A DNA stretch of 64,000 nucleotides from Pseudovibrio sp. Alg231-02. Lineage in GTDB: Bacteria; Pseudomonadota; Alphaproteobacteria; Rhizobiales; Stappiaceae. Shown here piece by piece: positions 11 through 8,923 of the stretch. The translations under genes were made by a program, and so were the position numbers. The stretch spans positions 124,001 to 188,000 of the forward strand of contig NZ_FREX01000002.1 in the NCBI RefSeq assembly GCF_900143565.1, written 5' to 3'. Below the pieces are notes generated by a model that saw only the letters and a list, made by a program, of their open reading frames with translations, was not told the DNA's origin and did not search any database. Every line of letters starts with the position of its first letter. The first letter of the stretch is position 1.

Positions 11-3000
11 TTACAAGAATCCTCTGGTTTCGGCTTGAAGCAATGCTTCTTTTGCGCAGCTCATTACTTTGCGATAATCCTTTGTGGAGAAGCTCGTGAT
101 TATGCCCTCCAACGGAAAGTCTACCTGATCGGGGAGTCTCAGCTGAACTTCATGTCTTAAAGTTTGCGCGCAGTTGTTCAGCGCTTCTAGGTCGCCTGCT
201 TCAGAAGCGATCTTCAGATCAGTTAGTATGGCTGTCCATTTCATTGCATATTCAAAGGGGAGGGCCGACCAAACCTTTATTGCTTTTTGGGTTTCTGTTT
301 TTGCTGAAGCAACGTTTCCTTGCTTGAGCATCACCCATCCCAATGATGCATGCGCGACACCAACGTAATCCATCATCTGAGCTTTTTTTGCTGCCTCCAG
401 TAGCTCCAGCGCTGCAATCTCGGTTGCAGTTAGGTCTCCCAGTCTTCTTAATAGTATGACATGGTAGCAAAGCGTGCGAACTTGGCCGCTGGTATCGCCG
501 ATTTGCTTTGTCATCTCCAGAGCCTTCAGTAGAGCTGACTTCGCCTCTTCAAGCCTTCCGGCAAATAATAGAAGAAATCCAAGCTCAAATTGTGCGACGG
601 AAATCTCTATGTGCCTTCCTGTTTCAATGGCCGATCTCAACAGCTGTTGCCCTAACTCAACTGTTGCTTCGTTGACTCTGTAGCGATCGCGGCGCAGATT
701 TCTGTATATAAGCGAAAGGTACAGTTTGTAGTGATGGTCGGGGTTGCCGCTGTGCTCGATTAAAGTTTGTGTCTCAGAAAATTCTTGGTCCATTTTGTGA
801 TAATTTGCGGCCCAGTAATGTGTCCACAAGCGAGCAACCTTGATTTCTATGTATTCCTCACGTGTTGCAGTCAGCGTGCGCTTATCTGTTATCAAGACGC
901 GCGCGGCTTCATCCAGAGCTGTCAGCGCCTCTTCATGCCTATGTTCCGCTTCATAGGTTTTGGCCCTCAGTCTGTACAGGCGGGCCTGCGTGATCAGGTT
1001 GGTTGGCTTTTGGTCCAGAGCGCTTTTCAATGCACTACGGGCGAGGTCATGGTTTCGTTTGAGCGAATACAGGCCTGCCAGAGTTTCGTTAACTGATATG
1101 CTTTCCCTAGACCAGTCCTCTTTGCGTTCTGGTTCAAGGGTGCGGGCCTTCTGGATTTCCGACAGGGCGGTTTGATAGAGTTTGATAGCTTCATCATTTG
1201 CGTGGTGGCGATGAGTGTGATCTGCTGCAAGTTGCAAATGTCGGGCTGCTCGACCGGGAACGCCTGCACAGGCCCAATGATATCCTAGGCGCGCGTCGAT
1301 ATTATCGGATCCTTTTTCACTCGCACTTACTTTGTCCAGTTCAGTCGCTATTCTCTCATGCAGTTCGCGGCGACGGTGAGCGGAAAGTTGGGCTTCTGCT
1401 ACCTCCCGGATTTTATCGTGAAGGAAGCGGAAGCCATCTTTTTCGTCGGCTTCTAAGATTTGGCGTTCAACCAACTCGTCAATCACATGGCCGATCGTCT
1501 CTTCGTTCAGCTTTTTAACAGAGGCGATGAGGTCTATTTCGAACTGACGGCCAATGAGTGCGGCGCAGTCAACTGAACGGCGTGCGTCTGGGTTAAGCTG
1601 GCCAATGCGGAGGGTGATCAACTCACTCAATGAACTCGGCAGTGGGAGTTTTTCAAAGCGGGTTGTATCGGATAGTGCTTTGTGCGCGAAGGCCCACTTG
1701 CCAGATTGGTCCCGCCGGAGCACCTGTTCTGCCACTGCTGTACGAAGATACTCAGCAATGAAGAACGGGTTGCCATTGCTACGCTCTAAAAGGAATTCTG
1801 CGAATGCATCAGGAAGCCGGTTTATCGCCAGCATGCCGCTAGCTAATTTTTCAATGTCATGGGTACCCATTCTTTCCAAGGAGACATCACTGACATCGTC
1901 AAAAGGCAAAATAGCATTGATCTCTTTGGTTCGCTCTTCGGATCTCATAGTTCCAAGCAAAAGTCCGGAGATGCCGTCCATGCCTTCTTCAGCAAGGTGT
2001 TTTAGAAATGCCAGGGTTAATTCGTCGGCCCATTGCAGGTCATCAAGGATCATCAGCAAAGGGCAAGTTTGAGAATAAGCGGTCAGGACACTACGCAAGG
2101 CTTCGAATAGTCGTATGAGCGTTTGCTCTGGTTCGAGCTTTGGCGAAGTAGGAAGGTGCTTCGCCCAAGGGAGAGATTTTATGCTGGTCGAGTATTGAGA
2201 TAATACTGCGGCATGTTTCCCTATTAGTATTTCAAAGTTCTCCTTTCCCCCTTCGATGCAAGTGTCAGCGATCTGATCCAACAATCGTAAGAAAGGTTGG
2301 AGTGGTTGGCTGACTGGCTTAGTTTGAGTGCTGTCTCTTACTTGAGAAGCGCACTCGCAACTGACAACCGACATTCCTGACTTCTTAGCCTTACTGGCAA
2401 TCTCTGAGACGAGGCGTGTTTTACCCAGTCCGCTTTCACCGAAGACAATATGGATCTGCCCTATTCCATCTTTGGCGTTGCTCAGATGACTTTCTATATT
2501 TGCCTGTATCTTGAAGTTTTCAATAAAGGACGCGCGATAAAGATACGGCTTTGCTGAAAGAGTCGCTACTGGCCACTTTGGCCGCTTTACGCCGAGTGCT
2601 TCAATCGACTGCAAAACAGTTTCTGCGTAGCCGATGCGTTGGTCCGCGGTTTTTGATAGGAGCGACATGATCATGTCATCTAGTGTTTTGGGAACACCAT
2701 GAACAAGATCAGATGGATTGATCGGAAGGCGTTCGAGATGACCGCGAAACACCTGAGTTTGCGAGCCGTTGAAGGGTTTCAATCCGGTCACTAGCTCATA
2801 TAAAATACATCCAAGACTGTATAAGTCGCAGCGAGCATCGAGAGTTTCGTTTCGAATTTGCTCTGGTGCCATAAAATGAGGGGATCCGCTGATGACTTGG
2901 GCGCTTTCAATGACCTCTCGACCGACTGAGCCACGTACCTCAGTGACAAGGCCAAAGTCAGCCAGTATGGGAAACTTGCTTTTAAGGATGAAGACGTTGC

Positions 3001-3565
3001 TGGGCTTTAGATCGCGGTGAATAATTCCCAAGCCATGTACATAGGCAAGAACCTCACAAATGCCGTAGACAAGCGTAAGGGCATCTTCGAGTTGGCCGGA
3101 AGCTGCAATATTGTGATGATCCGGTAGGACGTTGTGGTCAGGGTACGTGATGTTTTCGTCTAGATTAATGTCATCAAAACCGGAGATAGTTGTCTCGGGG
3201 CTGTATTCTGCTGCGAACCACTCCTGGGTAGTGGAGGTGGAAGCCGCTGATCGGTGGTCTGACCAGATTTTGTCAATCGTGTTGGCAAGCGTAGGTGCGT
3301 CAATTACTTCCATAGCATGCCATGGGAGGCCATCAGAGATGCCATGGTCGAGAATCTGAATAACTCCAGGATGCTTAAGCTTTGCGAGAGACCTTATCTC
3401 GCGACGGAGTTGGTTTAGCTTGGATGCGTCGCGCTTAGTGGCCATTTTGATGGCGACATGTTTGCCGGTGGCTGTATTTTCACCAGTAAAAACAACCCCG
3501 TTACTGCCTTGCCCTATCTGCTTGATTATTCTGTAAGGGCCTAATTGATTGTTTTTTTGATTCAT
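11..3565 (-). CDS. Ser/Thr protein kinase fused to AAA ATPase and TPR region
   Basis: The 1184-residue protein starts with a Hanks-type kinase domain (about residues 11-325). Visible motifs are the glycine loop GQGSNG (18-23), Lys40 in VAIK, catalytic HRD (Asp185), DFG (203-205) and APE (233-235). A low-complexity insert of about 60 residues (101-160) splits the kinase N-lobe from the catalytic loop. It is followed by an AAA_16/STAND-like ATPase with Walker A GESGLGKT (376-383) and Walker B LLMILDD (503-509), then a long helical tail that looks like TPR repeats. No transmembrane segment or C-terminal output domain (LuxR, cyclase, histidine kinase) is visible, unlike many PknK-like relatives. 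All kinase catalytic residues are present, so activity is likely; substrate unknown. The stop codon lies at 11-13, so any downstream partner is outside the window. Confidence 0.85.
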   Translation of the reverse strand: MNQKNNQLGPYRIIKQIGQGSNGVVFTGENTATGKHVAIKMATKRDASKLNQLRREIRSLAKLKHPGVIQILDHGISDGLPWHAMEVIDAPTLANTIDKIWSDHRSAASTSTTQEWFAAEYSPETTISGFDDINLDENITYPDHNVLPDHHNIAASGQLEDALTLVYGICEVLAYVHGLGIIHRDLKPSNVFILKSKFPILADFGLVTEVRGSVGREVIESAQVISGSPHFMAPEQIRNETLDARCDLYSLGCILYELVTGLKPFNGSQTQVFRGHLERLPINPSDLVHGVPKTLDDMIMSLLSKTADQRIGYAETVLQSIEALGVKRPKWPVATLSAKPYLYRASFIENFKIQANIESHLSNAKDGIGQIHIVFGESGLGKTRLVSEIASKAKKSGMSVVSCECASQVRDSTQTKPVSQPLQPFLRLLDQIADTCIEGGKENFEILIGKHAAVLSQYSTSIKSLPWAKHLPTSPKLEPEQTLIRLFEALRSVLTAYSQTCPLLMILDDLQWADELTLAFLKHLAEEGMDGISGLLLGTMRSEERTKEINAILPFDDVSDVSLERMGTHDIEKLASGMLAINRLPDAFAEFLLERSNGNPFFIAEYLRTAVAEQVLRRDQSGKWAFAHKALSDTTRFEKLPLPSSLSELITLRIGQLNPDARRSVDCAALIGRQFEIDLIASVKKLNEETIGHVIDELVERQILEADEKDGFRFLHDKIREVAEAQLSAHRRRELHERIATELDKVSASEKGSDNIDARLGYHWACAGVPGRAARHLQLAADHTHRHHANDEAIKLYQTALSEIQKARTLEPERKEDWSRESISVNETLAGLYSLKRNHDLARSALKSALDQKPTNLITQARLYRLRAKTYEAEHRHEEALTALDEAARVLITDKRTLTATREEYIEIKVARLWTHYWAANYHKMDQEFSETQTLIEHSGNPDHHYKLYLSLIYRNLRRDRYRVNEATVELGQQLLRSAIETGRHIEISVAQFELGFLLLFAGRLEEAKSALLKALEMTKQIGDTSGQVRTLCYHVILLRRLGDLTATEIAALELLEAAKKAQMMDYVGVAHASLGWVMLKQGNVASAKTETQKAIKVWSALPFEYAMKWTAILTDLKIASEAGDLEALNNCAQTLRHEVQLRLPDQVDFPLEGIITSFSTKDYRKVMSCAKEALLQAETRGFL

Positions 3566-3801
3566 CTGAGTATCTATTGCTGAGGTTCAGATGTAATATA
3601 TCAATATTATCTGGCTTTATCGATGTGATATTTTAATCAATGTTTGAATTTGGCCGGTAAAATAGCATGCTGATTGCACGTTATGGCGATAAAACAAGGT
3701 CGATAAGTGTACATGGAGAGAGCACAAGTGAAGAAGCTGTTTGTCAAATCATATCTTGAGGTAGTTGTAGCTTCTCGTCTTGATCTTCGTTTGAAGAGAG
3801 A

Positions 3802-3878
3802 TGGTAGCGAGGGAGGGACTTGAACCCCCGACACGCGGATTATGATTCCGCTGCTCTAACCAACTGAGCTACCCCGCC
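3802..3878 (-). tRNA. tRNA-Met (CAT anticodon)
   Basis: Read on the minus strand this is a 77-nt cloverleaf. The acceptor stem pairs with two G-U pairs, the D arm contains AGCTCAGTTGGTTAGAGC, the anticodon stem GCGGA/TCCGC closes the loop ATCATAA (anticodon CAT), and the T loop is TTCAAGT. The 3' CCA is encoded. A CAT anticodon could be elongator Met, initiator or tRNA-Ile2 (lysidine). The first pair is G-U rather than the mismatch typical of initiators, which favours an elongator type. The 3' end faces the kinase gene. Confidence 0.95.
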
Positions 3879-3924
3879 ATCCGGTGCGCTATGTTGCGGT
3901 GTTGACCGCCGCGCTGTGAAGGGG

Positions 3925-3953
3925 TGTATAAGGCCCCAGAGGGGTGGCGTCAA
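3925..3953 (-). promoter_or_regulatory. Promoter of the tRNA-Met gene
   Basis: On the minus strand there is TTGACG, a 17-bp spacer, then TATACA, about 47 bp ahead of the mature tRNA. This fits a housekeeping sigma-70 promoter. No other gene could use it in this direction. Confidence 0.7.
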
Positions 3954-4176
3954 GCGTTCTTGGGTAAGTTTTGTGGAAATATGATCTCTTGTGAAAAACT
4001 CCATGAAAACCTAGGGTTAATGCCAATTTCGTTGAGCAATAACTGCCAGTTGCAGTTGTCAGGAACAAGAAAATCTCATTTTTTGCCAAGTTGGAAATTC
4101 CGGAGTGGCTTTTTTAGGATTTGTGGAGTGATGTCGTATTGAAACTGTGCAAGGCACAGGCTTGAGAGCTCAAAAT

Positions 4177-4215
4177 AAAACGCCCCGGTGATGATCAGAT
4201 CAGGCGGGGCGTTTT
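4177..4215 (-). terminator. Rho-independent terminator of mnmA
   Basis: Perfect inverted repeat AAAACGCCCC / GGGGCGTTTT with a 19-nt loop, 28 bp past the mnmA stop on the minus strand, and T-rich on both sides. Confidence 0.85.
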
Positions 4216-4242
4216 GAATAATTCGGTCAGTTTGGCAATGCT

Positions 4243-5445
4243 TTAGCCTGCAGGAAAGCCTGCTGCTTCCCAGCCTTTTCCGAGCAGTGCTTTGAGGGCT
4301 GCTTCTGCGCCTTCTTGCTTCTCGGCACGCTGAATCCAACCACCGCCGAGAACACGCGCTTCCTGACCGTCTTTGTCGAAGAAGACGCAAGCCTGTCCTG
4401 GGGCTACGCCAAATTCGCCTGCTACCAGCTCGACAAAAACATTTTCGCCACTCTTGCGCAAAATTGCTTCTGTCGGTGGGCGAGTAGAGCGCACCTTTGC
4501 ATAAACAGTGATGCCGTCTTCCGGCAGATCGTCCAGCGTACCTGGGCCAATCCAGTTTACTTCACGCAGCAGCAGGTTGTGGGTTGCTAACGCTTCTTGC
4601 GGACCGACAATCACGCGTCGTCCATCTGCATCCAGATGAACAACATAGAGAGGGTCACCAGTTGCAACTCCGATACCGCGGCGCTGACCAATGGTATAAT
4701 GGATGATGCCGTTGTGTCGGCCAAGAACGCGGCCATCTACATGCACGATATCACCCGGTTCTGCCGCGTGTGGGCGAAGCTTGGCAATAACGTCTGTGTA
4801 GCGGCCTTCTGGCACAAAGCAGATGTCCTGACTGTCATGCTTGTCAGCAATTGCCAGTCCAAACTCATGTGCAAGTTCGCGGACTTCTGGTTTGGTCATG
4901 CCACCTAATGGGAAGCGTAAGAAATCTAGCTGTTCCTGCGTTGTTGCGAATAGGAAGTAGCTTTGGTCACGGTCCAGATCGACGGGACGGAACATGGCAA
5001 GTTGATTGCCTTCCATGCCTGTGCGGACATAGTGGCCTGTGACCAGAACATCAGCGCCCAAATCCTTTGCCGTTTCCAGTAGGTCTTTGAACTTGACGGT
5101 CTGGTTACATGTTACGCATGGAATAGGTGTTTCGCCATTGATATAGCTGTCCGCGAAGCGTTCGATGACCTGCTCTTTAAAGCGGGATTCATAATCCAGA
5201 ACGTAATGCGGAATGTCGAGTTTTTCTGCGACACGGCGGGCATCGTGGATGTCTTGCCCGGCACAGCAAGCGCCCTTGCGTTGGATTGCTTCGCCATGAT
5301 CGTAGAGCTGTAGAGTGACGCCGACCACATCATAGCCTTCGCGTTTCATCATTCCGGCAACAACCGATGAATCAACGCCGCCTGACATGGCAACAACCAC
5401 CCGTGTGTCTTCTGGGCGGCCGGGCAGGCCAAGACTGTTTAGCAT
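4243..5445 (-). CDS. mnmA: tRNA-specific 2-thiouridylase MnmA
   Basis: 400-residue MnmA/TrmU, which thiolates U34 of tRNAs for Lys, Glu and Gln in the cytoplasm. The PP-loop SGGVDS is at residues 21-26. The catalytic cysteine pair corresponds to Cys113 (in PCVTCN) and Cys209 (in DSQDICFVP). The C-terminal beta-barrel segment is intact. Slightly longer than E. coli MnmA because of a short N-terminal extension. An AGGATGAGG-like ribosome binding site lies ahead of the ATG. Monocistronic, with its own terminator at 4177-4215. Confidence 0.95.
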
Positions 5446-5900
5446 TCCAATTACCTCATCCTGTAGGCGCGTTTAAGTGAGAGCCGTATCTATAACATCA
5501 CGAGCAGATTTCAATCCTGGGAGACATTGAAGTCTGAAGCGCAGATTAGTTTCTTTTGCTTGCTTAGTGCTTGCTGCGCTCTGGCGATGGCTAAACGCGG
5601 GCTCTCTTTTAAACGCTTCGCATGCGTACGCTTCGAGCGTGCTAGTTGGCGGGAATATACCTAAAACTCGACGGAAGGCCAATCTTTTTGATTGATGTTT
5701 TTACTTGCTGGGCATTTGTTGCCGAGGCGGGGGCAATAAGTGATCTTGTGGCCTATTCTTTGAAATGTTGATTTGAGTTTATCTATTTGAAAGTTCTTAT
5801 ATATTTTTGATTTTTTGGTTGGCCCGCTAATTGCATATCTGCGCGCAAGATGTCTTGACCATCGTTGCTGATGGTGTGTGCTGCGTAGTTTGAGGAATAT
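5446..5900. other. 455-bp intergenic region between mnmA and fliK
   Basis: Divergent upstream region. It holds the sigma-54 promoter at 5820-5835 and an inverted repeat TTGCC-N8-GGCAA at 5719-5736, about 85 bp upstream of the -24 element, a plausible activator site. Short ORFs here lack ribosome binding sites and family resemblance. Confidence 0.5.
5820..5835 (+). promoter_or_regulatory. Sigma-54 (-24/-12) promoter for fliK-flgD
   Basis: TGGCCCGCTAATTGCA matches the TGGCACG-N4-TTGCA consensus with one mismatch. The invariant GG (5821-5822) and GC (5833-5834) are separated by 10 bp. It ends 66 bp before the fliK start. The FlbD-type activator gene nearby makes this a coherent class III flagellar promoter. 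Confidence 0.75.
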
Positions 5901-8243
5901 ATGTCGCAATCTGCTTTGCTGAGTTTAACCGGTCCTGTTCAGCCGCAAACGCCTTTAGGCCACGTTGTAGGGCAAGGTGGTAATGCGCTGCTTGGTGAGA
6001 GTGTGCTCGGTCAAAATGCCGATACTTTCTCCGGTCTGCTCGCCAAAGCTTCTGAGGGAGATGGGGCCGCAGCGACTACGGTGGACCTCTATTCTGGAGC
6101 TTTAACGACTGGCGGCGATCTTTCGGTTTTGAGCCCAAGTCTCATCAAGGATGAAAATGGGGAGAGTGCAGTTGCTGGTTTGGCTGGTGAACTGCCGCTG
6201 TCCACTGTTTCCCAGGTGCCAGTACCAGTGTCAGGTGTGGTTCCGGGATTGGTTGCAGTTGCGACAACTAATGATGAAGCGCTTCTTCTCAATGGCGGCG
6301 AAGGGAAAGCGAAAGCGCCTTTTGTTGCTTTGCCACAAAATGTCCAGGAGGCAGGCAGTCAGCCAGCCTTAGCGGAGAAAGCAGGCGAAGCGAAAGTTGC
6401 TCAGGCGGTCGCTAATGTTCAAAGCGCTTCTCCTATTGTGGGTGAGGGCGAGGCCATCTCTTCCAAAACAGTAGAGAGTGCTGTTGAAAATCTTGGTGCT
6501 TTACAGAAAGCTGAGCGTGGTGGGCAGATCTTGCCGCAGGCGGATGATGGACAGGTAACGGCTCAGATTGGAGCTGTTGCTCAAGAGACAGACGTCGCTG
6601 GAACCGTACAGGAATCTAAAGGCAACGCTCGTAATGCTTCAGATACGCAACAGCGCGTGACGTCCGAGCAGCAGGGTGCTGTTGTTAAGCAAGGTGGTTC
6701 AACTGAGCCTCAGTTAAATGCGCTGGAGCTCCCGGTTTCAGATCAAGTGGCTAAGGTTTCTCCCGAGCTGATTGCACGTTCATCAGGGGTGTCTGAGAAA
6801 TCCCTGAATTCTGCAGCTTCTCCGCAAGTTCAGCCAGCGAGCAATGGGGCTAAGGTAGAGCAAGTCGCCAATGCCGTTGGTAATGGTGCTGTCACGACCT
6901 CAGATAGCGGTAATGTTGACACTGTTGCTAATTCAGTCAGCGCTCCTGCCGAAAAGACCGCTGCACCCGATCGTGCTGCGGGTGAAGCGGATATTCGATC
7001 ATCGCAACCTGTTGTTGGTCGTCAGGTCAGTGAGCTAGCAACAGCGCAAGACGTGAAGAGTGTCAAAGTTCAATCCGAACCTGTTCAGCCGCAATCTGCT
7101 GAGGGTAAGGGAGGTGTTCAGTCTACTCGCGGGGATGTTCTTGTTGCTGCCGTTGAAGGTGAGGCAGACGCTTCCTTAGAAAAGCCTGTGCTTGTCCGGC
7201 AGACTGATCGGGCTGGTTCAAGCTTTGTCGGCAATCAACAGCGTGCGGTGCAGACCGCATCTGTTGAAGGTGATGGTGACATCATTTTCCCGAATGTGAC
7301 TTCCAAGCCGGATGTGCCTTCAGAAAAGATTGGCCAAGCTTCGCAGGTACAAAAGGCTGTTGATGTATCCTCTGTTCAAGAGAATGAAGCGGGTGTCCGT
7401 TCTGCGGAACAGGTGAGCCGGACTGGTGCTGTGACGACTGCAGCGACCCCGTTGGTTGGGAAAGACAAAACTGCTGGTGGAGCTGCGCAAGCGACAGCGA
7501 GCACTGAAGCCGTTACGGAGGTTAGTGATGCTCCGGAGGCTGATGAGCTTACCAATGCACTGAACAAGCCTACAGAGCAGGCAGTATCCGCTGACAAGAA
7601 AAGTACTACGCCCTCTGTCAGTATTCAGGTGAAGGTGTCACAGGCAAATGAGCAGGTTGCTTCAACAACGGCAATCGGTTGGGGGCTTGCTGCTGGTCCG
7701 TTGGATGGATCTGAAGCTGAGCTTGATTGGGAAAGTTCTGAAGCAATCTCCAGTACTGCTGCACGTTCTGATACTGCATTCCGTTCAATGGGCTCTCTGC
7801 CAACCTCTACGCTGAGGAATGTTGCGAATGCTGTGTGGCCTGAGATTGCCCGGCAGGCAAGTGGCGGCGTTGATCGTTTTGAAATCCGGCTTGACCCAAA
7901 AGAGTTGGGTGGGGTCGATGTTTCTCTGGAATTTAGCAAGGATGGCCGCGTACGGGCGCATCTGATTGTTGAGAGGCCTGAAACTCTTGAACTTCTGCAG
8001 CGAGATCAACGCGGGTTGGAGAAGGCTCTTCAGGAAGCTGGGATCGAAAGCGATAAGAGCTCTCTTCAGTTCTCACTTGGAGGGCGTGGCTCGCAGACTT
8101 CAGATCAGCAAGAGAACCGACAGGCAAATGTCGGGCAGCTGGATCGAGCGTCAGAAGGCGCTGAGTTGCCAGAAGAAAATTATCTCGCACACAATAATTT
8201 AAATAGTGCTGCCCGCGCTGGTGGACTGGATATCTCGGTTTGA
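5901..8243 (+). CDS. fliK: Flagellar hook-length control protein FliK
   Basis: 780 residues. The first 640 are low-complexity Ala/Val/Gln/Ser-rich sequence typical of the FliK ruler region. The conserved Flg_hook domain is at about 656-725 (starts DRFEIRLDPKELGGVDVSLE and continues through ERPETLELLQRD). FliK is secreted through the flagellar export apparatus and triggers the substrate switch of FlhB when the hook is complete. The ATG follows GAGGA with good spacing. It is longer than E. coli FliK (405 aa), as is common in alphaproteobacteria. flgD follows 23 bp downstream in the same transcription unit. Confidence 0.9.
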   Translation: MSQSALLSLTGPVQPQTPLGHVVGQGGNALLGESVLGQNADTFSGLLAKASEGDGAAATTVDLYSGALTTGGDLSVLSPSLIKDENGESAVAGLAGELPLSTVSQVPVPVSGVVPGLVAVATTNDEALLLNGGEGKAKAPFVALPQNVQEAGSQPALAEKAGEAKVAQAVANVQSASPIVGEGEAISSKTVESAVENLGALQKAERGGQILPQADDGQVTAQIGAVAQETDVAGTVQESKGNARNASDTQQRVTSEQQGAVVKQGGSTEPQLNALELPVSDQVAKVSPELIARSSGVSEKSLNSAASPQVQPASNGAKVEQVANAVGNGAVTTSDSGNVDTVANSVSAPAEKTAAPDRAAGEADIRSSQPVVGRQVSELATAQDVKSVKVQSEPVQPQSAEGKGGVQSTRGDVLVAAVEGEADASLEKPVLVRQTDRAGSSFVGNQQRAVQTASVEGDGDIIFPNVTSKPDVPSEKIGQASQVQKAVDVSSVQENEAGVRSAEQVSRTGAVTTAATPLVGKDKTAGGAAQATASTEAVTEVSDAPEADELTNALNKPTEQAVSADKKSTTPSVSIQVKVSQANEQVASTTAIGWGLAAGPLDGSEAELDWESSEAISSTAARSDTAFRSMGSLPTSTLRNVANAVWPEIARQASGGVDRFEIRLDPKELGGVDVSLEFSKDGRVRAHLIVERPETLELLQRDQRGLEKALQEAGIESDKSSLQFSLGGRGSQTSDQQENRQANVGQLDRASEGAELPEENYLAHNNLNSAARAGGLDISV

Positions 8244-8266
8244 TGCCGCGCATGAGGAAATAGACA

Positions 8267-8923
8267 ATGACTACAATTAATGCACTGACACCGAATGCAA
8301 ACTCCTCTGGCGCAAGCACCCAGAACAGCATCAATGCAAACTTTGATCTGTTTATTTCATTGCTGACCACGCAGGTGCAAAACCAGGATCCGTTAGAGCC
8401 TCTCGATTCGGCTGAATATACGAATCAGCTGGTTCAATACACGATGGTTGAGCAACAGGTTGCAACTACTGAGAAATTAGAGGAGCAGCTGACACAGCTC
8501 AAAACGCAAAGTGCGAGTCAGTTTGTAAACTATATCGGTAAGGAAGTGACTGCTCAGAGTGCGACTGCGCAGCTCAAGGATGACAAAGCTTCTTGGAATC
8601 TTGATGCCGTTTCTGCAGGCAAGGCGACCATCACTGTTAAAAATAGTGAGGGTGCTGAGGTCTATCAGGAAGAGATTGATCTGAAAATAGGTGACAACAC
8701 CTTTGAATGGGATGGTGTGGCGACAAACGGCACAAAAGCTGGTGATGGGGCCTATTCCATTGATATTATTACCCAGGATGCCAATGGCGAGCCTTTCGCT
8801 GTTCAGACCGAAGTGAAAGGGAAAGTGGACGCCGTGGACTTCAGCACTGGCGACATTATTCTGCACATGGGGGATCTTAAAATTCCCGTGGGTGAGGTCA
8901 CTGGAGTCAATGGAATTCTGTAG
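8267..8923 (+). CDS. flgD: Flagellar hook assembly (capping) protein FlgD
   Basis: 218 residues. The N-terminal FlgD segment contains FDLFISLLTTQVQNQDPLEP (the family signature FLxLLxxQLxxQDPxxP), followed by the FlgD Ig-like and tudor-like domains. FlgD caps the growing hook and is not part of the finished flagellum. Ribosome binding site GAGGAAA lies ahead of the ATG. Placed directly after fliK, so both hook-assembly factors are made together. Confidence 0.95.
   Translation: MTTINALTPNANSSGASTQNSINANFDLFISLLTTQVQNQDPLEPLDSAEYTNQLVQYTMVEQQVATTEKLEEQLTQLKTQSASQFVNYIGKEVTAQSATAQLKDDKASWNLDAVSAGKATITVKNSEGAEVYQEEIDLKIGDNTFEWDGVATNGTKAGDGAYSIDIITQDANGEPFAVQTEVKGKVDAVDFSTGDIILHMGDLKIPVGEVTGVNGIL

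Follow-up and report, generated by a model that had tools for sequence, protein, structure and literature searches.

A kinase gene beside tRNA-Met in Pseudovibrio sp. Alg231-02 ends a six-gene YcaO-TfuA module that may feed cyclic di-GMP signalling

Pairs of YcaO and TfuA proteins make thioamidated ribosomally synthesised and post-translationally modified peptides (RiPPs; PMC8120280), and a 2026 paper reports thioamidation of the ribosomal protein uL16 in Pseudomonadota (PMC13063428). Because Haft et al. (2010; PMC2887384) noted a large Ser/Thr kinase beside the NHLP precursors of Burkholderia, the presence of a kinase near a YcaO-type system is in itself no novelty, and kinases of the TIGR03903 family are likewise found with YcaO-type peptide modification (PMC2887384). 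In Bdellovibrio DgcB, the FHA domain binds a phosphorylated threonine in the tail of the protein, gating the synthesis of cyclic di-GMP (c-di-GMP); the kinase responsible was not identified there (PMC6733907). Here we describe a kinase gene beside a tRNA-Met gene at the left end of a 64,000-nucleotide stretch of Pseudovibrio sp. Alg231-02 (positions 124,001 to 188,000 of contig NZ_FREX01000002.1; referred to as the window). This gene terminates a six-gene module, the rest of which lies to the left of the window. Our explanation of the whole, to which we give about even credence, is that the kinase regulates a mobile YcaO-TfuA peptide-modification module that feeds c-di-GMP.

The left-hand parts of the module are given in coordinates of the contig (G000:C14), on which window base 1 is position 124001 and the window is C14:124001-188000. 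Reading away from the tRNA, the kinase gene (window positions 11-3565, minus strand) is followed by genes for an NmrA-type short-chain dehydrogenase/reductase (SDR; C14:123078-123968, minus), TfuA (C14:121747-123108, plus), YcaO (C14:120432-121742, plus), a 91-residue candidate precursor (C14:120151-120426, plus) and an FHA-GGDEF diguanylate cyclase (C14:118845-119864, minus). The initial annotation, made on the window alone, had raised the possibility that other parts of a system lay to its left, and five further module genes were indeed found there. Past the FHA-GGDEF gene lies a sigma factor/ChrR pair, which also occurs near this site in two relatives (G003 and G006). The G+C content of the module was 0.476-0.489, versus 0.511-0.526 for the neighbouring DNA.

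That these genes belong together was indicated by their joint distribution. Some match to the kinase was found in 60 of 100 relatives, mostly partial, and orthologues along the whole length were found in G009 (70%), G010 (66%), G048 (45%) and, in two frames, G005 (64% and 55%). TfuA was present in exactly these four carriers out of 16 genomes searched. Most of the FHA-GGDEF protein was matched in the same four (45-62% identity), and the best match in each of the other 12 genomes was essentially confined to the GGDEF part. The tRNA's neighbour mnmA was found in all 16. In all five carriers (this genome and the four relatives) the six genes stand in identical order at different chromosomal places. 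At class level, two further genomes (G248, locus L169, and G311, locus L172) show kinase, SDR, TfuA, YcaO and FHA-GGDEF in the same order, with a small open reading frame (ORF) beside YcaO. The kinase might instead be an unrelated gene that had landed beside YcaO-TfuA in a tRNA-Met hotspot, and the site downstream of tRNA-Met does carry different genes in different relatives. However, such a chance neighbourhood, which we regard as hardly credible, is largely refuted by the recurrence of the six genes in unchanged order at other chromosomal positions and by the matching set of G248 and G311.

Across 398 phylum-level genomes, the family of the 91-residue protein was found in one, namely this genome. 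Plasmid carriage was not indicated by the 161 plasmid records that matched the kinase, none over 80% of its length and all at less than 60% identity (24.8-26.0% among the 15 matches listed). In the G005 copy (L084 7791-16468), TfuA and the 91-residue ORF are open, and the broken frames there reflect decay or sequencing error. A close YcaO-TfuA pair with a small protein was also seen in G401 (L165 9158-12038), with a stand-alone cyclase-type protein nearby; no kinase-AAA-TPR, FHA or SDR gene was found in the 20 kb read, and this locus may represent the core of the module without its signalling arm.

The kinase gene encodes a Ser/Thr kinase - AAA_16 (STAND-type) - TPR protein of 1184 residues with an ATG start. 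Pfam matches comprised Pkinase (7.9e-44), AAA_16 (2.8e-18) and, above cut-off, TPR_2 and TPR_12, and the glycine loop, VAIK, HRDLKPSN, DFG, Walker A (GESGLGKT) and Walker B (ILDDL) motifs were all intact, so that ORF, Pfam and motif checks agree with the initial description of an 1184-residue protein with intact kinase and AAA motifs. The same description held that the protein lacks any output domain. This stands for the polypeptide itself, the kinase domain aside, but 4.1-5.2 kb beyond the left edge of the window lies the gene of a probable reader, the FHA-GGDEF protein. Compared with the model TIGR03903 ('TOMM system kinase/cyclase fusion protein'), the kinase aligned in three stretches, the best covering residues 366-817 (E 1.8e-75). 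Because its score of 254.6 bits fell far below the cut-off of 705.75, we consider it a relative and not a member of that family. It differs further in that no cyclase domain was detected in it by Pfam (nor did the cyclase profile described below match any of nine kinase-type proteins), in that its partner is TfuA, and in that the 91-residue protein matches no NCBIfam model.

The same protein had raised the possibility of a conflict system, in which a STAND-type AAA-TPR protein would sense phage. A STAND-like ATPase in a tRNA-hotspot island, with matches to the PADLOC models PD-T4-6 and mad6, is in keeping with this reading. Nevertheless, the PADLOC matches listed for the kinase (25 of 31) all fell on the kinase-domain side, at residues 4-370, and the other five module proteins gave no PADLOC match at 1e-5. 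We rejected the defence reading since these matches are generic and confined to the kinase-domain part; with nothing else pointing to conflict, anti-phage function appears very improbable.

FHA domains read phospho-threonine, and the last gene of the module encodes such a domain. Pfam placed FHA before GGDEF in this protein, and both a GGEEF motif and the FHA residues were conserved in the alignment and are intact in this genome. Inspection by eye revealed a tail threonine ahead of the FHA domain in seven of seven FHA-GGDEF proteins (one of them a fragment), followed at +3 by a hydrophobic residue in six of the seven (DETVQF in this genome). This protein resembles DgcB in its domain order, FHA before GGDEF, and in the tail threonine that precedes the FHA domain; it differs in that a kinase is encoded within the same module. 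By analogy with DgcB, the kinase would phosphorylate Thr28, the tail threonine near the N-terminus of this protein, and the phosphorylated tail would then dock in the FHA domain and set c-di-GMP synthesis; we consider this output arm fairly probable. On the input side, the kinase would be switched by the AAA-TPR part, acting as a STAND-type sensor that plausibly responds to the precursor or to the modified peptide. Peptide-binding TPR sensors have precedents among the RRNPP regulators. Sensing of the modified peptide by the TPR-STAND part is the least certain step of the scheme and is put forward tentatively.

YcaO and TfuA are adjacent and scored well above their Pfam cut-offs (250.9 bits against 25.7 for YcaO, 162.8 against 30 for TfuA). 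Residues 1-217 of the predicted TfuA model (mean predicted local distance difference test, pLDDT, 87.5) superposed on Methanosarcina acetivorans TfuA with a Z of 30.6 and a root-mean-square deviation of 1.3 over 215 aligned residues, and the YcaO profile retrieved MJ1094. In these respects the pair resembles described YcaO-TfuA thioamidation systems, from which the module differs in having its own small-protein family and an attached kinase and FHA-GGDEF protein. The two enzymes would be expected to introduce a backbone modification, most likely a thioamide, into the C-terminal segment of the 91-residue protein. The nearest NCBIfam models of both are those of the McrA-glycine thioamidation pair (TIGR03266 and NF033432). 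Together with the thioamidation of uL16 in Pseudomonadota (PMC13063428), this speaks for an alternative, the ordinary thioamidation of an intracellular protein, be it the whole 91-residue protein or a host protein, with signalling as a side branch. However, both NCBIfam cut-offs were missed (TIGR03266 with 221.7 of 365; NF033432, the TfuA model, narrowly with 227.9 of 235.2), and the module is patchy and mobile, not core, so that we deem such a role quite unlikely.

The TfuA protein (L009:17747-19108) is twice the length of the TfuA whose structure has been solved, and its extension (about residues 247-440) was predicted with good confidence to be all-helical. In the fold search made for this extension, which was modelled as part of the whole protein, Foldseek yielded one match at E <=0.001, namely TfuA itself. 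A likeness of residues 247-348 to SurA (Z about 6) fell inside the noise range stated for the tool and was not built on; a TIGR04500 match at residues 252-345 (E 0.0028, below cut-off) agrees with the SurA rows, and was set aside as being at noise level as well.

The 91-residue protein matched no Pfam or NCBIfam model, and its predicted fold was not usable (mean pLDDT 51.9). An ORF of this type was nevertheless found directly upstream of YcaO in five genomes, with shorter relatives in three more loci. It has four close and three more distant relatives, which have in common with it a nearly constant C-terminal segment, G-x-x-C-[FY]-L-[LIV]-[ND]-[IL]-x-x-[IL]-[KR]. The ratio of nonsynonymous to synonymous substitution (dN/dS) was 0.14 versus G009 and 0.07 versus G010, values that are rough because dS is 1.3-1.9 and near saturation; on this rough estimate, the protein appears to be under purifying selection. 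As a short conserved ORF beside modifying enzymes it has the mark by which RiPP precursors are recognised, and it is the likely, still candidate, substrate of YcaO-TfuA.

This in turn raises the question whether the module makes a conventional bioactive RiPP, with an exported peptide derived from the 91-residue precursor, and with the kinase and FHA-GGDEF protein only timing production. YcaO-TfuA pairs are known for thioamidated RiPPs (PMC8120280), and small ORFs upstream of YcaO at three other loci (L163, L175 and L177) bear precursor-like C-terminal repeats. On the other hand, none of the six genes of the module encodes a transporter or a peptidase, and the C-terminal segment of the family is nearly constant. 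Typical toxin cores are unlike such a nearly constant segment. A RiPP of this kind thus appears rather unlikely. Our preferred explanation, in which the kinase regulates a module that feeds c-di-GMP, can be taken one step further: an intracellular thioamide-modified ribosomal peptide would itself be the signal, sensed by the TPR-STAND kinase and passed through a phospho-threonine/FHA switch to c-di-GMP, all within one self-contained moving module. As a complete chain, this remains a doubtful proposition.

To place the module among other YcaO/TfuA loci, three sets were combined: 36 named YcaO relatives (a biased set, because these loci were found by similarity to the YcaO of this module); a class sample, in which TfuA occurred in 21 of 385 genomes and all 24 places besides this module were fetched; and an order sample, in which TfuA occurred in 62 of 397 genomes and 60 of 73 other places were fetched. 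Removal of 7 duplicates and addition of this genome, G009 and G010 yielded 116 loci, which were scored with profiles for kinase, cyclase, AAA-TPR, FHA and cyclic-nucleotide-binding (CNB) proteins built from some of the loci scored. L103 was assigned by hand to the cyclase type because its cyclase match lay in an overlapping frame, and L134 was counted as kinase type with a weak AAA-profile match; the tree omits L101, L102, L103, L116, L162, L167 and L168. By neighbour, 9 loci had a kinase-AAA-TPR gene, 29 a cyclase-AAA-TPR gene and 78 neither. An FHA protein accompanied 8 of the 9 kinase types and none of the 29 cyclase types (Fisher p 1.8e-7, uncorrected for shared descent), nor any of the 78 others, whereas a CNB protein was found with none of the kinase types, 19 of the cyclase types and 13 of the others. 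The same profiles gave no kinase, cyclase, AAA-TPR, FHA or CNB match in 250 kb of control DNA, mostly from this genus, which yielded one GGDEF match.

Cyclase-type loci of the cyclase-AAA-TPR/YcaO/TfuA/Crp kind, such as that on pAB510d of Azospirillum sp. B510, share with the module the AAA-TPR scaffold, the small ORF, YcaO and TfuA, and differ in having a nucleotide cyclase for the kinase and a Crp/Fnr-type protein for FHA-GGDEF. The public annotation of Azospirillum sp. B510 accordingly lists an AAA ATPase with a cyclic-nucleotide Gene Ontology term, a small hypothetical protein, YcaO, TfuA and Crp/Fnr. An SDR of the module's type was not found near cyclase-type loci. Because a class III nucleotide cyclase, often with a CNB protein, replaces the kinase/FHA pair in these related loci, a shared plan of sensor, messenger and matching reader around YcaO-TfuA might be envisaged.

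Several observations weigh against our explanation. The kinase types form one clade, with the cyclase types spread among the other AAA-TPR proteins, and the pairing with FHA may therefore be a single ancestral event. The order sample contained no kinase type, and a CNB protein was found with 0 of its 7 cyclase types. The FHA protein at L121 lacks GGDEF, L134 lacks an FHA match, and the kinases of both miss the strict HRD motif. In addition, the tail threonine of G048 is not followed by a hydrophobic +3 residue, and four of the six genes of G005 (kinase, SDR, YcaO and FHA-GGDEF) have broken frames.

Some features of individual loci were apparent upon reading them. L121 (2817-7398), from a metagenome-assembled genome of Polyangiaceae, is a myxobacterial YcaO-TfuA locus with the kinase-AAA-TPR gene directly after the FHA protein. 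Short ORFs upstream of YcaO share a common start like 'RGADGRLYRI', likely a leader, in seven cyclase-type loci (L110, L112, L114, L117, L163, L170 and L171) and in L111, where no AAA-TPR gene was found. The small ORF of L163 contains several repeats of a ~15-residue unit, like a multi-core precursor, and those beside YcaO-TfuA in L175 (11755-12153) and L177 (11746-12183) contain 'GKQRFA' repeated two and three times, respectively; no AAA-TPR neighbour was found at either of the latter.

Every component type of the module is already known. A literature search on YcaO/TfuA with kinase or cyclase partners turned up neither the kinase/FHA-GGDEF unit nor its cyclase/receptor counterpart; the words 'kinase' and 'cyclase' are absent from the main text of a TfuA genome-mining survey, and a Pseudovibrio genome paper makes no mention of YcaO or TfuA. 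The present locus gives a context to an orphan-looking kinase, and offers a candidate set of kinase, FHA-GGDEF protein and modified peptide in one transferable unit, in contrast to the DgcB precedent, whose kinase was not identified. The swap of kinase/FHA for cyclase/cyclic-nucleotide receptor around YcaO-TfuA also makes the purpose of the modified peptides testable by comparison. If the modified peptide is itself the signal, the cyclase/receptor loci would be a parallel version, and 'modified peptide to second messenger' a general, undescribed design.

With regard to the genomic setting, the kinase gene lies on the same strand as tRNA-Met (cat anticodon; 3802-3878, minus strand, identified with ARAGORN), downstream of its 3′ end, which is the insertion side. 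The 236-bp spacer between them (3566-3801) has a G+C content of 36.9% versus 52.6% for window positions 4201-64000, so that coordinates and composition bear out the initial annotation of a kinase gene immediately 3′ of tRNA-Met across an AT-rich gap. The first ~27 bp past the tRNA retain the native tRNA flank of the genus, and the native terminator-like stretch of relatives is missing from the spacer. tRNA-Met follows mnmA in 15 of 16 relatives (none was found in G001), and the module is beside tRNA-Met only in this genome and in G009. In G010 and G048 it lies ~1.7 Mb and ~48 kb away from mnmA, respectively, and in G005 on another contig. Synteny of kinase and tRNA throughout the relatives without a repeat of the tRNA end, which would have spoken against an island, was hence not observed, three of the five carriers having the module elsewhere.

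Comparison by BLAST of this genome's stretch with nine relatives revealed that the tRNA 3′ end recurs (45-79 bp, 92-96%) further downstream in G003, G004, G009 and G014. A stricter 42-base scan of mnmA and module loci recovered this second copy in G004, G009 and G014 (not in G003), and a second whole tRNA in G012; in G005, G007 and G008 the far side of the site is not visible, because only ~1-2 kb of contig remain beyond the tRNA. In G009, the module is bounded on one side by tRNA-Met and on the other by a 45-bp repeat of its 3′ end. Situated 16 bp past the FHA-GGDEF gene, this repeat marks the far boundary of an insert of about 9.4 kb. The corresponding place in G015 is without the insert, G015 positions 1-1700 and 2183-3775 matching both sides of the G009 insert. 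A repeat of the tRNA end, which the initial annotation had proposed to look for, was thus present in G009. This genome showed no exact repeat, the tRNA 3′-terminal 12-mer being single-copy in C14:84001-144000, and only a degenerate relic was detected. This relic (C14 about 118259-118302, between FHA-GGDEF and ChrR) aligns over 46 columns with the CCA end and the native 3′ flank, and includes only the last four bases of the tRNA. Among 2000 Markov shuffles one scored as high, and among 816 window pieces none did; the relic is probably the worn far junction. The patchy occurrence (this genome and 4 of 100 relatives), the G009 repeat and the empty site of G015 together support the proposal that the kinase marks the edge of an accessory island at tRNA-Met.

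An integrase, which had also been looked for, was not found inside the module, the insert being accounted for by the six genes. Integrases were found in all 17 genomes searched; those of this genome on C14 lie at 677 and 701 kb, among the 15 of 18 matches listed. In G010, one integrase lies ~4 kb from the module, which is also flanked by ORFs that we take to resemble transposases and a resolvase. The mnmA gene of this genome is 96% identical to that of G009 and 85% to that of G010, whereas in the AAA-TPR tree G009 and G010 cluster together to the exclusion of this genome (100/99). Because these two patterns are incongruent, the sequences suggest horizontal transfer of the module.

The same tRNA-Met site was found to carry three other inserts, each ending in a copy of the tRNA 3′ end, which documents the site as a hotspot. 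The insert of G003 (L087 1644-5638) contains a 1074-residue ORF that was named autotransporter-like upon reading, that of G004 (L091 reversed, 1576-3132) a single 431-residue ORF, and that of G014 (L088 reversed, 1672-8454) three ORFs named upon reading as resembling an RND efflux set. Since no integrase was noticed among the ORFs of these three inserts, the hotspot seems to take up cargo that is mobilised in trans.

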